From a virus, in IMG/VR virus record IMGVR_UViG_3300031963_008590, positions 1-20,013 of that record: a DNA stretch of 20,013 nt. One strand, given 5' to 3'. Shown in pieces: positions 1 to 19,321 of the stretch; positions within the stretch are counted from its first letter, which is position 1; each line of letters opens with the position of its first letter. The notes beneath the pieces were generated by a model. It did not search any database. It was given only the letters and a program-made list of their open reading frames with translations, and was not told where the DNA came from. The translations under genes and the position numbers were made by a program.

Positions 1-609
1 ACCTGTAGCGTCAACCAAACTACCATTTTGCCATACAACAACAGTTGCGTCATCAGTGATAGCAGTCCATCGTCCTTTAGAATAATCAAAAAGTCCTGGA
101 GGATCTAATCCAGCTTCAGCACCTTCATAAAATAAATCATAAAGATTTTTTGCGTAAGGGTAACCATTACCAGGATAACCTTGTCCTGGATTGTTATCTC
201 CGCTATTTACCGCTTCTGGAGAACCAACTGGAGGATAATGTGTTCCACCATTTACACCAAATCCATCAACATAACCTTGGATACGTGGAACAAAGTAAAA
301 CAATTTACCAATAGGTAAGTTCATTGCTTGAACTGAAACGATGTCGTTAGCCAATAATTTAGAGAATACTCTTCTTACGATTGGGAAAACAACTGTTTCA
401 AATGCTCCGTTTGAACCTTCAGAAGTAGCTTCATTGATTAGGAAAGAAGCTTGGTTTTCATATAGCTGTGCTACGTTTTCTTTTAGATGTCCTTTAAGTC
501 CATCAAGGAACCCTAATTTGTCCCACTTGTTAATAGTGTCTTCTTTGATAACTTTTAGGTGCTTTAACCCAATGTTACCAACTAGACCTGATTCTAATAA
601 TGCTCCCAT
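1..609 (-). CDS. 23: Major capsid protein gp23, N-terminal part (cut by left edge)
   Basis: This is the precursor of the T4-type major head protein, which forms the hexamers of the icosahedral shell and is trimmed by the gp21 protease. The frame is open through all 203 codons to the window edge, so the C-terminal part lies outside. The first residues are MGALLESGLVGN. A block typical of marine T4-like gp23 follows: GHLKENVAQLYENQ near residues 37-50 and a VRRVFSKLLANDIVSVQAMN stretch near 75-95 leading to PIGKLFYFVPRIQG. The ATG at 609 is chosen because the leader just upstream is A/T-rich and carries the TATTTATA-like box. The family call is from recognition of the conserved block and from position after gp21 and the scaffold, as in T4. 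There is no Shine-Dalgarno sequence. Confidence is high. Confidence 0.93.
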   Translation of the reverse strand, partial: MGALLESGLVGNIGLKHLKVIKEDTINKWDKLGFLDGLKGHLKENVAQLYENQASFLINEATSEGSNGAFETVVFPIVRRVFSKLLANDIVSVQAMNLPIGKLFYFVPRIQGYVDGFGVNGGTHYPPVGSPEAVNSGDNNPGQGYPGNGYPYAKNLYDLFYEGAEAGLDPPGLFDYSKGRWTAITDDATVVVWQNGSLVDATG

Positions 610-14839: not shown

Positions 14840-16906
14840 ATGGCAATAGAGTTTATTGATGACGGAGATAAGGGTAAAAGTAAATCAAGTAACAGTGGAA
14901 CACCAGTACTTGATAATTTTAGTAAAGATTTAATTAAACTTGCCGAAGAGGGTAAATTAGATCCTGTAATCGGTAGAAAAAAAGAAATTATTAGAATTGC
15001 ACAAGTTTTATCAAGAAGAAAGAAAAACAACCCAATTATTATTGGAGAACCTGGTGCGGGTAAAACCGCAATTGTTGAGGGTTTAGCTATGTTGATTCAC
15101 GCGGGTGAGTGTCCAAAGAATTTGTCAGAAAAGAGAATTATTTCTTTAGATATAAACTCAATTGTTGCAGGGACGAAATACCGAGGACAATTTGAAGAAA
15201 GAATGAAGGTGATTATTGAGGAATTACAGTCGAGTCCGAACATTATAATTTTTATCGATGAAATTCACACTATGGTTGGTGCGGGAAATAGTTCAGGTTC
15301 TTTGGATGCATCTAACATCTTCAAACCAGCTCTATCAAGAGGTGAAATACAATGTATTGGAGCAACAACTCTTGATGAGTATAGAAAACATTTTGAGAAA
15401 GATGGTGCATTAGAAAGAAGGTTTCAAAAAATAATTATCGACCCATCCACAAAAGAGGAGACTTTTGAAATTCTCAAATTGAGTAAGGATAAATATGAGG
15501 AACATCACAAAGTTAATTACAACGATGAGTCGTTGAGGTTGTGTGTTGAGTTAGCAGATAGATATATCACAGATAGAGAGTTTCCAGACAAAGCATTCGA
15601 CATTTTGGATGAGGTTGGTTCAAGAATGCAAATTGACATTAAATTACCTGAATACATCGAGGATTTGAAACAAGAAGCCGCAGACATCAAGAAAGAAAAA
15701 GTTGAGGTTATTAAAAAACAAAAGTATGAGTTAGCAGCAGAGCTTCGAGATAGAGAAAAAAATGTTTTAAAAAAATTAGAAGATGAAAAGATTAAATTCG
15801 AGGAGGAGTTAAGGATAAGTAAGAGAGGTATTCCTGAAGAACTTATTTATGAGGTTGTTTCAAACATGACAAAAATACCTGTAAGTAAAATCAATATTGA
15901 TGAAAAAAATTCATTGGTTAATTTAGAGGATTCATTAAATAATGTAGTGATTGGACAAGAAGAAGCTGTTAAGAAAATATCTAAATCAATAAGAAGAAAT
16001 AGAGTTGGTATAAAAGATCCAAATAAACCAATAGGTTCATTTATTTTCTTGGGTTCAACTGGTGTTGGTAAGACTTTCTTGGCAAAAAAATTAGCAAAAG
16101 AAATATTTGGAAGTGAGGACAGTCTAATAAGAGTGGATATGTCAGAATACCAAGAAAAACATACTATATCAAGATTGATTGGTTCTCCTCCTGGATATGT
16201 TGGACACGAAGAGGGTGGACAATTAACTGAACAAGTAAAAAACAAACCTTATTCCGTAATTCTTTTTGATGAAATAGAAAAAGCGAACAAAGACATCTTC
16301 TCTACATTACTTCAAATGTTAGATGATGGACATATGACAGATGGATTAGGTAGAAAAATCAACTTCAAAAATTGTTTAATTATTATGACATCAAATATTG
16401 GTGTTAGAAAATTACAGGATTTTGGTACTGGTGTTGGATTCAAAACATCAAACAACAGTGATGCAATACAAGAAGAATATAAAAGAGATGTTCTGAAAAA
16501 AGAGTTGAGTAAATTTTTTGCACCTGAATTTTTGAACAGAATAGATGACGTTGTAATTTTCAATTCCCTTAAAAAGAATCATATTGATGTAATAGTTAAA
16601 TTGGAAATTGATAAATTAGTTACAAGATTAGAAGGAATGAAATATAGTATCGGTTATGAAACATCAGTTATTGATTTAATATCTGAAGTGGGTTTTGATG
16701 AACAATATGGTGCACGACCCATCAAGCGGGCAATCCAAGATAAAATTGAAGATTTAATTTCAGAAAAAATACTACTCGAAGAAATACACGAAGGTAAAGA
16801 CTATATGTTATTTGTAAAAATAGATGGTGAGGATAAAGTTATTGAAATTGAAGAAAGGGTAAAACCTGAACCAAAGAAAAGAGGTAGAAAGAAAAAGGGG
16901 GAATAA
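14840..16906 (+). CDS. clpC: ClpC-like double AAA+ unfoldase without the N-domain
   Basis: Hexameric Clp unfoldases pull substrates into the ClpP protease chamber. This 688-aa protein has two complete AAA+ modules. D1 has Walker A GEPGAGKT (69-76), Walker B IFIDE (Asp140-Glu141), pore loop GTKYRGQ and Arg in LERRF. D2 has Walker A GSTGVGKT (405-412), Walker B ILFDE (Asp477-Glu478), pore loop GYVG (452-455) and FLNRID. Between them is a short middle domain with a UVR motif (KKQKYELAAELRDREK). GTGVGFKT at 530-536 carries the VGF tripeptide that docks ClpC on ClpP. Cellular ClpC is about 810-860 aa; here the 150-residue N-domain is replaced by about 20 residues and the protein begins almost at TPVLDNF. 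A basic tail KKRGRKKKGE ends it. It is the longest plus-strand gene. Confidence 0.93.
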   Translation: MAIEFIDDGDKGKSKSSNSGTPVLDNFSKDLIKLAEEGKLDPVIGRKKEIIRIAQVLSRRKKNNPIIIGEPGAGKTAIVEGLAMLIHAGECPKNLSEKRIISLDINSIVAGTKYRGQFEERMKVIIEELQSSPNIIIFIDEIHTMVGAGNSSGSLDASNIFKPALSRGEIQCIGATTLDEYRKHFEKDGALERRFQKIIIDPSTKEETFEILKLSKDKYEEHHKVNYNDESLRLCVELADRYITDREFPDKAFDILDEVGSRMQIDIKLPEYIEDLKQEAADIKKEKVEVIKKQKYELAAELRDREKNVLKKLEDEKIKFEEELRISKRGIPEELIYEVVSNMTKIPVSKINIDEKNSLVNLEDSLNNVVIGQEEAVKKISKSIRRNRVGIKDPNKPIGSFIFLGSTGVGKTFLAKKLAKEIFGSEDSLIRVDMSEYQEKHTISRLIGSPPGYVGHEEGGQLTEQVKNKPYSVILFDEIEKANKDIFSTLLQMLDDGHMTDGLGRKINFKNCLIIMTSNIGVRKLQDFGTGVGFKTSNNSDAIQEEYKRDVLKKELSKFFAPEFLNRIDDVVIFNSLKKNHIDVIVKLEIDKLVTRLEGMKYSIGYETSVIDLISEVGFDEQYGARPIKRAIQDKIEDLISEKILLEEIHEGKDYMLFVKIDGEDKVIEIEERVKPEPKKRGRKKKGE

Positions 16907-16925
16907 AACCCCCCCCCTTTTTTAA
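16892..16925. terminator. Bidirectional terminator between clpC and the peptidase gene
   Basis: AAAAAGGGGG pairs with CCCCC and TTTTT across a short loop that contains the clpC stop codon, with T-rich or A-rich flanks. It can end both the plus-strand clpC transcript and the convergent peptidase transcript. Confidence 0.75.
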
Positions 16926-17707
16926 TGTCTCTCGTAACCTAACTCTTCTATCATCATCTTACCTACTTTGATTCCATTGTAAGTATCGTCAACAACCACG
17001 TATTCGTTTCTTGTATGATAATTATAATAACCGATTGAGATGTTAAAACAAGATATATTATAATTTTTGTGAAGAGGGTATATATCGGTATAAGGGTGTC
17101 TATGATATTTGGTATCATTTGGGAAGTGTTCTGTAATTAATCTCCCACCGACCTCAAAAAATTTACTACCTCTATCAAACATAGGAACACCCATTAAAAA
17201 TTCTGAAATCATATTATTTTCAGGTGCGTCAAACTGAATTGCATAACCAACGTTCTCAAAAAAGTGGGGGTCTGAGTTAAACGAACCTTTACATCCAGTT
17301 TCTTCTGCAACAAAAAATGCGGCTTTTAAATTTGGTAATTCTTTAAGTAATTCTAAACAGGCGAATACACCACATTTATCATCACCACCAATTCCTGTCG
17401 GTTCTCCATTATCATTATACGCTTTAAGTGATAATTTTACATTACCTTGCGCATCAGATAACATTTCTTCTCTTACGTTGATTGTATCAATAGTATGAAC
17501 CGTATCTGTGTGTGCCACAACACAAGGAAAGAACTCTACATCCTCATCAGTTTCTTTGGTGGCGTAAATGTTATATAACTCATCCACATAATAGGGGATG
17601 TTTTCTTTCTCCAACCAAGTGGTAATAAAGTCAATCATCAAATCCTCTTGGTATGTCTTCGTGGGAACGGACAAAACCTTCTTTAACAACTCAAAATCTC
17701 TTTCCAT
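16922..17707 (-). CDS. Compact M20/M28/M42-type zinc metallopeptidase
   Basis: A 261-aa co-catalytic zinc peptidase. Metal-ligand and catalytic positions can be read in order: VAHTDTVH (His66, Asp68), GIGGDDKCG (Asp109/110, bridging ligand), VAEETGCKGS (Glu135 catalytic base, Glu136 ligand), QFDAP (Asp160) and YYNYHTRNEYV (His231). PepT and similar M20 enzymes are about 370-410 aa with an inserted lid/dimerisation domain, which is missing here, so the protein is essentially the catalytic domain and nearer in size to small M28/M42 forms. It has no signal peptide and should act in the cytoplasm as an aminopeptidase or di/tripeptidase. It lies 22 nt after the 353-aa gene, in the same operon, and converges on clpC. 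The substrate is unknown. Confidence 0.85.
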   Translation of the reverse strand: MERDFELLKKVLSVPTKTYQEDLMIDFITTWLEKENIPYYVDELYNIYATKETDEDVEFFPCVVAHTDTVHTIDTINVREEMLSDAQGNVKLSLKAYNDNGEPTGIGGDDKCGVFACLELLKELPNLKAAFFVAEETGCKGSFNSDPHFFENVGYAIQFDAPENNMISEFLMGVPMFDRGSKFFEVGGRLITEHFPNDTKYHRHPYTDIYPLHKNYNISCFNISIGYYNYHTRNEYVVVDDTYNGIKVGKMMIEELGYERH

Positions 17708-17729: not shown

Positions 17730-18791
17730 TTAACTATACAAAATTTTGTTGATTATTTTTTTTATGTGTTCAAATAATTCAGGGTGATATAAAGATAAGT
17801 TTAAATCTTCAATATTATCAACACTTCTTTTTTCCATACCACCATTTTGTTTTTCAACTACAAATACCAATTTGTTTGTTTTTGGATCCAAACTATCAAA
17901 TTTTACTCTTATGTTTTTTTCAGGTATGTCTATATACTTATCAAATCCACCTAAATTAGCAACTGTTGCATACAATTTATCATATTGGTGAGCATCGGGA
18001 TTTTCTTCAATCTCCTCCTCAATTTGGTCCATTATTTTATCTAAATTCCATGCAACATCACGATTGAATCCTTCAGAATCATAGTCGTCACACCATACAT
18101 TGTATTCAAGTTCATACCATCCACCTCTACTACTATTTCTATCGTATGTTGCAATTAGTTTAGTGAGCATACCTTTCAAGTCCTCATCTTCTGCTCGTAA
18201 CTTTTTATACCAACCAATCAATACACCAACAGTAGTTTCATACTTATAATGAGCACTTATTTCTTTTATTCCAAATTTATAAAAAGGGTTTTTAGTGTCT
18301 AATAGTAATTCTTTCTGAACCGCTCTTTCTTTACAATCTTCGTTTTTTTGTCCGTATTCGGAAGTAATATTCCCAACCCACCTATCAAATCTTTTTTCTA
18401 AAAATTTTGCAATGGCACTACTATTTTCATCATTTACTTGTAATCTAGGATTTAGATATTTTAATATTTCATTTAATTTTTCTTTATTACTTTCATCAAA
18501 CCCCTGAATCACATATCCTTCTCTCCATTCATCTTCGGCCCAATAAGTATCATAATCTCTATAACCATAATTACCCATAAATCTTCTCCATGCGTACATA
18601 TCATCGTCATCATCAATACCTAATACATTTAGAAAATCTTCATCTTCATCAAATGTGATTATAACTTTACTTGAAGTTGAGTACTTGGCAGGTATTACGT
18701 CATAGATTAAATCATCTGGATAACGCCATCTAGTACCAACCTCACCACCCTTATAGATATTCATTAAAAATTCAAACGTTTCACTTGCCAT
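17730..18791 (-). CDS. Unrecognised acidic 353-aa protein
   Basis: I do not recognise a family. The protein is acidic and aromatic-rich (for example DMYAWRRFMGNYGYRDYDTYW near residues 65-85 and GWYELEYNVWCDDYDSEGF near 220-240). There is a helical middle (EKRFDRWVGNITSEYG) and a beta-like C-terminal third (IRVKFDSLDPKTNKLVFVVE), ending in ELFEHIKKIINKILYS. There is no signal peptide or membrane segment. It is the first gene of a two-gene operon with the metallopeptidase, with a one-mismatch promoter box only 5 nt before its ATG. It is divergent from the tmRNA gene. A function linked to the peptidase is possible but not shown. Confidence 0.8.
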   Translation of the reverse strand: MASETFEFLMNIYKGGEVGTRWRYPDDLIYDVIPAKYSTSSKVIITFDEDEDFLNVLGIDDDDDMYAWRRFMGNYGYRDYDTYWAEDEWREGYVIQGFDESNKEKLNEILKYLNPRLQVNDENSSAIAKFLEKRFDRWVGNITSEYGQKNEDCKERAVQKELLLDTKNPFYKFGIKEISAHYKYETTVGVLIGWYKKLRAEDEDLKGMLTKLIATYDRNSSRGGWYELEYNVWCDDYDSEGFNRDVAWNLDKIMDQIEEEIEENPDAHQYDKLYATVANLGGFDKYIDIPEKNIRVKFDSLDPKTNKLVFVVEKQNGGMEKRSVDNIEDLNLSLYHPELFEHIKKIINKILYS

Positions 18792-18812: not shown

Positions 18813-18844
18813 TTTGGATATATTTAATATTATACATATATTTG
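18813..18844 (+). promoter_or_regulatory. Bacteroidetes-type promoter of the tmRNA gene
   Basis: TTTG at 18813-18816 is followed after 20 bp by TATATTTG at 18837-18844, which fits the Bacteroidetes primary sigma consensus TTTG-N(19-20)-TAnnTTTG. It lies 28 nt before the mature tmRNA 5' end, so host polymerase could transcribe tmRNA without phage factors. This is the best host indicator in the window. Confidence 0.8.
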
Positions 18845-18871: not shown

Positions 18872-19282
18872 GGGGGTGTTTTTGGATTTGACAGGCGTTG
18901 GCTGAGGAATAAGGGCACGTGGGGACTGAATTAATCTCCTTAAAAACTGATTCAGAAAAACAACTGGCAATGTGCTAAACAAAATGGAAGCAATCGGATT
19001 AATCCGTACTTCTGACGTAACTGTAGCTTAATCGTTACACAAACGGAGGGTCGGTGGACATATAACCTAGTAACAGAAGTCCCTACAAAGGTGGACTACG
19101 ACTAAACCCGAAATTGAGTCGTCCATTGGTTGTTGGTTTACGATGGTGAAGAACAAATCAACTTTGTTTCTAATCAAATTAAAATTAGATATTTTGGGGT
19201 ATTAGAAAATACCAACCTAAACGTGTAGTCCTTATCTGACAGGATGTTATGGACGAGGTTTCGACTACCTCCACCTCCACCA
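18872..19282 (+). ncRNA. ssrA: Transfer-messenger RNA (tmRNA), one-piece
   Basis: The 411-nt RNA rescues stalled ribosomes and appends a degradation tag. The acceptor arm is GGGGGTG (18872-18878) with CACCTCC (19272-19278, one G-U) and an encoded ACCA end at 19279-19282. The T arm is GAGGT-TTCGACT-ACCTC. Conserved 5' TTTGGATTTGACAGG resembles the tmRNA D-arm region. Helix P2 pairs ATAAGG and CACGT with ACGTG and CCTTAT. The tag stop TAA (19029-19031) lies in the loop of a GTAAC/GTTAC hairpin, the canonical P5 arrangement. The tag frame ends RTSDVTVA. The resume codon is uncertain; GGC at 18966 would give a 21-residue tag beginning GNVLN. No smpB was seen in the window. A host-type promoter precedes it and a terminator follows 3 nt after the CCA end. 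Confidence 0.95.
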
Positions 19283-19285
19283 ATT

Positions 19286-19321
19286 AATAAACCCCACTCT
19301 TTTGAAGTGGGGGTTTATTAC
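19286..19321. terminator. Bidirectional terminator after tmRNA
   Basis: AATAAACCCCAC pairs with GTGGGGGTTTATT (one bulged G) across a short loop, directly after the tmRNA CCA end. The other strand can end the convergent 112-aa gene. Confidence 0.85.

Follow-up and report, generated by a model that had tools for sequence, protein, structure and literature searches.

The window (the whole 20,013-base stretch of viral DNA analysed) contains a complete one-piece tmRNA gene encoding a 21-codon tag that does not end in Leu-Ala-Ala and that, judging from its pattern of substitutions in related viruses, is under purifying selection at the amino-acid level. That this is a genuine, complete tmRNA together with its tag we regard as almost certain. 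It also seems likely, from sequence comparison, that the phage has a working tmRNA that delivers a lineage-specific degron.

The cmscan search revealed a full-length match to the tmRNA family RF00023, with a score of 108.9 bits (gathering score 47) over model positions 1–374 of 374; no other RNA family was detected in the window. The match covers exactly 18872–19282 on the plus strand and confirms the preliminary description, which had proposed a complete tmRNA with an acceptor arm, a T arm and an encoded CCA. In the acceptor stem, GGGGGTG pairs with CACCTCC, and G3:U70 corresponds to positions 18874/19276 (Table 1). We observed eight versions of this stem among the relatives, with pairing restored by changes on both sides, and G3:U70 was found in 60 of the 60 relatives in which the T arm was identifiable independently of this pair. 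The RNAalifold analysis of 42 relatives showed compensatory changes in P2, in the T stem and in a late helix near the 3′ side. A few relatives end in CCACTT, which would leave the addition of CCA to the host. The blank result obtained with ARAGORN on the window was considered a false negative; among 52 related loci, this program called a tmRNA in five and the correct frame in two. Some relatives (loci L010, L027, L046, L105, L116, L129, L163 and L168) have an odd T-loop, GAGGG-AGTCGGAG-CCCTC, and other acceptor stems; they look as if the tRNA-like domain had been swapped as a cassette.

Table 1. Features of the tmRNA gene and its neighbours in the window
Feature	Position	Strand	Evidence or remark
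ClpC-type double-ring AAA+ unfoldase without N-domain, ClpP-docking loop GVGF	14840..16906	+	Sole protein gene on the tmRNA strand
M20/M42-like peptidase, synteny marker by the tmRNA	16922..17707	-	phrog_4191, 1e-35; 80/80 loci
Conserved hypothetical protein, adjoins tmRNA, divergent	17730..18791	-	79/80 loci, 29-53% identity
Bacteroidota-type promoter, TTTG - 20 nt - TATATTTG (TAnnTTTG -7 box)	18813..18844	+	Exact match
One-piece tmRNA (ssrA) gene	18872..19282	+	RF00023; compensatory changes across 42 relatives
Acceptor stem, 5′ strand GGGGGTG	18872..18878	+	G3 = alanine identity; G3:U70 in relatives
A at -4 from the resume codon (E. coli A86 equivalent)	18962	+	tmRNA column A91 invariant, 42 sequences
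Resume codon GGC	18966..18968	+	Aligned with GGC of Bacteroidota cellular tmRNAs; GG invariant
Tag frame GNVLNKMEAIGLIRTSDVTVA plus stop TAA	18966..19031	+	Would follow Ala from charged tmRNA; synonymous excess
P5-type hairpin GTAAC/GTTAC, tag stop in loop	19017..19038	+	Read from sequence; relatives compared
T arm GAGGT TTCGACT ACCTC	19255..19271	+	cmscan; compensatory changes in the T stem
Acceptor stem, 3′ strand CACCTCC, A73, encoded CCA	19272..19282	+	U70 at 19276; CCA 19280-19282
Intrinsic terminator hairpin right after CCA	19286..19319	+	Stem 19292-19312

The sequence upstream of the gene includes TAnnTTTG, the flavobacterial sigma-A −7 box (PMC9723704). Over the whole window the promoter pattern occurs twice, for a chance mean of 1.49. 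When the relatives were compared, 74 of 79 had the arrangement TTG-17..24-TAnnTTTG in the 90 nt preceding the tmRNA, versus 1.4% of random 90-nt segments of the same phages. On the other side, 76 of 79 relatives have a hairpin below −7 kcal/mol within the 45 nt that follow the tmRNA. A sigma-70 promoter was discarded, as the window scan fell below the shuffle mean and the conserved box is of the Bacteroidota type. The tmRNA is best explained as a functional, separately transcribed gene with its own predicted promoter and terminator.

To place the tmRNA in context, we used 80 viral loci retrieved via the M20/M42-like peptidase. A tmRNA was detected beside the peptidase in 73 of them (nhmmer), and the other seven contigs extend no further than about 1.1 kb beyond the peptidase on its upstream side. 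A covariance search of whole records placed 45 of 50 related records, which reach 304 kb, above the RF00023 cut-off. The genes follow a constant order (TerL, nucleotidyltransferase, KTSC, UVR-motif ORF, ClpC, peptidase, 353-aa ORF, tmRNA), with ClpC and the tmRNA on one strand and the remaining genes on the opposite one. The rest of the window corresponds to a T4-like myovirus head region on the minus strand, with genes for the major head protein, a scaffold-like ORF, a prohead protease (Peptidase_S77), a T4-type portal and the terminase. Among annotated phages no near relative was found, the terminase reaching at most about 28% identity with no real DNA match. This lineage is a family of large lake-dwelling viruses, best explained as jumbo-type myoviruses of Bacteroidota. 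Several features point to a Bacteroidota host, in agreement with the Bacteroidota context assumed previously: the type of promoter, the resume codon, the closest cellular ClpC proteins and the host-like context of the tmRNA.

The resume codon had been considered uncertain in the preliminary description, which noted that a tag starting with GGC at 18966 would have 21 residues. The comparison of relatives removes this doubt. In E. coli, A86, located 4 nt ahead of the resume codon, sets the tag frame (PMC2481249); the equivalent A is invariant in the 42 sequences compared, and the GGC aligns with that of the host tmRNAs (phage AACTGGCAATGTG, Chryseobacterium AACTGGCAACGAA). These two observations establish the 21-codon tag GNVLNKMEAIGLIRTSDVTVA, encoded by 18966–19028 and ending in S-D-V-T-V-A before the TAA at 19029–19031. 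As had been proposed, the stop codon belongs to a P5-like hairpin: across relatives it lies at or within the hairpin tip, and in L014 the stem is GTTGC/GCAAC instead. The alternative frames carry stops in 35 of 35 and 30 of 35 distinct sequences. A frame with an ordinary LAA ending was ruled out, since there is none and Ala-Ala ends are absent from the relatives. The P5 assigned by the covariance model (CGGAUUAAUCCG, ~18996–19007) was rejected as misplaced: a tag terminating at this hairpin would have to be read in the +1 frame, which ends after three codons (A-M-C-stop). The tags called by ARAGORN in L004 (EKEQTLIIRG), L017 (EKEQPLIVRG) and also L050 were likewise rejected; they begin 235–321 nt from the start of the gene, outside the selected frame.

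Selection on the tag was evaluated by parsimony with 78 distinct tmRNAs, using a tree obtained from the RNA outside the tag. In the tag frame, 89 of the 181 inferred substitutions, a count that recombination inflates, were synonymous, versus 49.9 ± 5.5 after random re-placement (maximum of 69 in 5000). The shifted frames yielded 50/172 and 18/172 synonymous changes, and the excess is therefore confined to the tag frame. This rejects a chance ORF and indicates that the tag is under purifying, amino-acid-level selection. Synonymous variation is seen, for example, at Arg14 (AGA/CGT/CGC), Gly11 (GGT/GGA/GGG), Val3 (GTT/GTG/GTA) and Ala21 (GCT/GCC/GCG), and L152, which has the most diverged RNA body, still encodes GDVLDKMEVIGLIRTSEVTVA. 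The set retrieved with the peptidase, for which no tag pattern was used, gave identical peptides, so pattern bias is not the source of this result. Synonymous changes are nearly absent from the segment AAAATGGAA, and parts of the tag region are base-paired in the RNAalifold result; RNA structure could account for part of the conservation, e.g. that of AAAATGGAA.

A degenerate tag pattern matched IMG/VR viral DNA in at least 119 stretches, in tmRNAs. In the examined loci, some of which overlap, the 182 occurrences are all within tmRNAs and correspond to 22 peptides, all of them ending in V[TSA]VA. The earlier suggestion that the tag ending is not of the LAA type therefore holds throughout the relatives, whose tags, compared as had been advised, form one conserved family: the C-terminal (A)L-A-A or M-A-A of LAA-type degrons is absent from the 22 variants, and a pattern requiring Ala-Ala at the tag end retrieved no variant. 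A relaxed tag pattern had no match in the genomes of 84,980 species of bacteria and archaea, nor did tblastn of the tag against annotated phages, the tag comparisons covering phages other than the C-cluster mycobacteriophages (Bxz1, Cali). A copy taken from a phage protein was rejected as the origin of the tag, as the phage loci contain no tag-like protein segment elsewhere.

These data bear on the possibility that the phage needs only extra ribosome release and that the sequence of the tag matters little. Such a role would agree with the growth of lambda-immP22 in E. coli, which depends on the entry of tmRNA and on release, and for which neither the right frame nor the destruction of the product is needed (PMC2481249), and with the tmRNAs of Streptomyces phages, which carry merely host-like ANS..ALAA tags. 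However, the tag residues are held while synonymous sites drift, 13 of the 21 positions are essentially fixed and the tail never departs from V[TSA]VA; we consider this explanation unlikely. The same conservation, which spans the whole peptide and not the C-terminus alone, would be compatible with a non-proteolytic tag, a helix-turn-strand peptide through which stalled products would be bound or sorted. Some lineage tag variants match FeoA (Pfam PF04023; motif L-GL-xGxxVxV, SH3-like) with E = 0.035 and 0.059, below the cut-off, and the window's own variant gave no FeoA hit. Homology to FeoA was discarded because neither the FeoA nor the HPr matches come near the cut-offs, and both fit a common supersecondary pattern; since the phage loci also have no second segment resembling the tag, a signal of this kind is very improbable.

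The preliminary description had also raised the idea that the changed tail could avoid the host ClpXP. Such avoidance might spare slightly truncated phage proteins or deny the host its quality control. The tag end does differ from the host ALAA/AMAA, with Thr replacing Leu at −3. As stated, however, this idea lacks support: LacI with the tag AANDENYALVA is still degraded in E. coli, with a half-life of ~13 min versus ~8 min for the LAA version (PMC3511798), so that a C-terminal VA by itself provides no escape. Moreover, escape alone does not need the conservation of 21 residues, and the end is still small, hydrophobic and degron-like. Evasion of ClpXP thus appears improbable. A precedent for a different solution is Mesoplasma florum, which has a lineage-specific tag read by its own AAA+ protease, Mf-Lon (PMC9097571); it illustrates a switch in tag specificity, but in a cell, with Lon rather than Clp, and with an unrelated sequence. 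The turnover of VA-ended proteins and this precedent favour a degron of altered specificity over escape, and we consider that the tag is probably a degron.

A possible reader is encoded nearby. The ClpC-like unfoldase noted before at about 2 kb from the tmRNA is indeed present at 14840–16906. It has 688 aa and matches S. aureus ClpC (6em8) with 3e-217, the alignment starting at residue 150 of the latter, and includes the domains AAA, AAA_2 and ClpB_D2-small, that is, two ClpC-type AAA+ modules. No Clp_N domain was detected in this protein, and from the start of the alignment we deduce that the adaptor-binding N-domain is missing. In the phage ClpC copies examined, the pore loops KYRG and GYVG are kept, and the ClpP-docking (I/L/V)GF loop is GVGF, or GMGF in two. 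The phage protein thus resembles the ClpC of S. aureus (6em8) and B. subtilis (MecB) in both AAA+ modules, the M-domain region, the pore loops and the VGF docking loop, and differs from them in the absence of the N-terminal adaptor domain and in that no phage ClpP gene was found. Of the 80 related loci, 79 carry its gene, invariably on the tmRNA strand, and the top cellular relatives of the protein (54–60% identity) are almost all from Bacteroidota. In 18 larger records neither SmpB nor ClpP was found, with positive controls detected; these phage records may be incomplete and either gene could be missed. ClpC also occurs in phages of 634–642 kb and 735 kb (LR745206, LR756502, LR756501) that have no tmRNA above the cut-off, and LR756508 has both; hence, ClpC and the tmRNA are not obligate partners.

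From these observations, the following sequence of events can be proposed. During infection, the phage tmRNA would be charged by the host AlaRS and delivered to stalled ribosomes by the host SmpB, which is assumed because no phage SmpB was found. It would donate its Ala and then serve as template for GNVLxKMExxGLxRxSEVTVA; the ribosome would be freed, and the nascent protein would gain a 22-residue C-terminal tag. Products tagged in the 18966 frame would end in ...AGNVLNKMEAIGLIRTSDVTVA. The tag would then most likely act as a degron of altered specificity, for which the likeliest reader may be the phage ClpC-like unfoldase, feeding the host ClpP. That the tag matches the phage unfoldase, as had been suggested, is a reasonable hypothesis, and a role of this ClpC as the dedicated reader of the tag is tentative. 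Still more tentative is a private rescue and degradation channel, in which the 22-residue degron would be read only by the N-domain-less phage ClpC on captured host ClpP, beside the gene of an RNA nanocage, GOLLD, that may also act on ribosomes.

Compared with known systems, the phage tmRNA resembles the cellular tmRNAs of Bacteroidota in being one-piece, in the GGC preceded by A at −4, in the stop codon within P5 and in G3:U70. Bacteroidota host tags, as called by ARAGORN, are GENNYALAA, GENTYALAA, GEDNYALAA, GNEEFALAA, GESNYAMAA and GEYNYAMAA. They start with Gly-Asn/Asp/Glu, like the phage tag (G-N or G-D), but similarity ends after residue 2, and the phage tag has 21 instead of 9 codons and ends in V-[TSA]-V-A instead of A-[LM]-A-A. 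Virus-encoded tmRNAs, often near tRNA clusters, are also present in Bacillus phage G, Streptomyces phages, Stenotrophomonas DLP_6, Tunturi_4 and Xanthomonas X1. The tag of Bacillus phage G, AKLNITNNELQVA, likewise ends in VA, whereas most other phage tmRNAs have host-like ALAA, LAA, AIAA or AVAA ends, and none matches the tag of this lineage. Several other phage tmRNAs are permuted two-piece genes, unlike that of the window.

Other RNAs were observed around the related tmRNAs. GOLLD RNA (RF02032, 284–330 bits) lies just 3′ of the tmRNA, in convergent orientation, in nearly every relative that is long enough (38 of 50 related records; e.g., L058:5742-6151, L042:4112-4526, L038:541-947 and L073:5677-6083), and the window stops short of its expected position. 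This RNA forms a nanocage to which no function has been assigned, and ribosome binding has been reported in pull-downs (PMC12286853). Beyond GOLLD, tRNA arrays with several tRNAs per locus were seen in L004, L007, L059, L066, L072 and L081; these arrays include odd 4-base/2-base anticodon calls, and L074 has a suppressor-like tRNA (tta). In L026, L038, L042, L058, L067, L073 and L080, and also in L097, L137, L147, L150 and L156, a group I intron (RF00028, 86–96 bits) splits the T-loop of the tmRNA after the second nucleotide, a site that is T-loop position 3 if counted from the stem boundary. To our knowledge, an intron at this position has not been described in phages. It has been reported only from the class Bacteroidia (PMC11915505), and the intron-bearing relatives resemble the intron-form tmRNA (Nawrocki 2025, PMC11915505); the copy in the window is intron-free. 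In L058, the intron-bearing tmRNA is followed on its own strand by a free-standing ORF of 180 aa, HNH endonuclease-like by eye, located 708 nt downstream of the 5′ end of the RNA. In LR756508 (484 kb), a further phage tmRNA (72 bits), at L202:1501-1947, shares the resume context ACTGGC; its frame has 36 codons, GVNNADYESAGFTAEDFAQMDGESLYHGSERKPAAV, and ARAGORN calls a different tag for it. A second match in this genome, L207:1501-1612 (112 nt, 58 bits), is hardly more than the tRNA-like domain. It resembles the TLD-only tmRNA form of mycobacteriophage DS6A.

The 2025 tmRNA database contains only 79 bacteriophage sequences (PMC11915505). The lineage described here has at least 119 matching viral DNA stretches and is nearly invisible to ARAGORN, and with GOLLD as the constant neighbour of its tmRNA, two RNAs linked to translation lie next to each other. 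A specific degron for which there is a candidate unfoldase would also offer a new, orthogonal means of protein degradation in Bacteroidota. The tag has departed from the LAA rule and is kept so by selection, and what becomes of unfinished proteins may be under the control of the virus itself. This makes it a testable question whether a phage tmRNA merely frees ribosomes or redirects their products.
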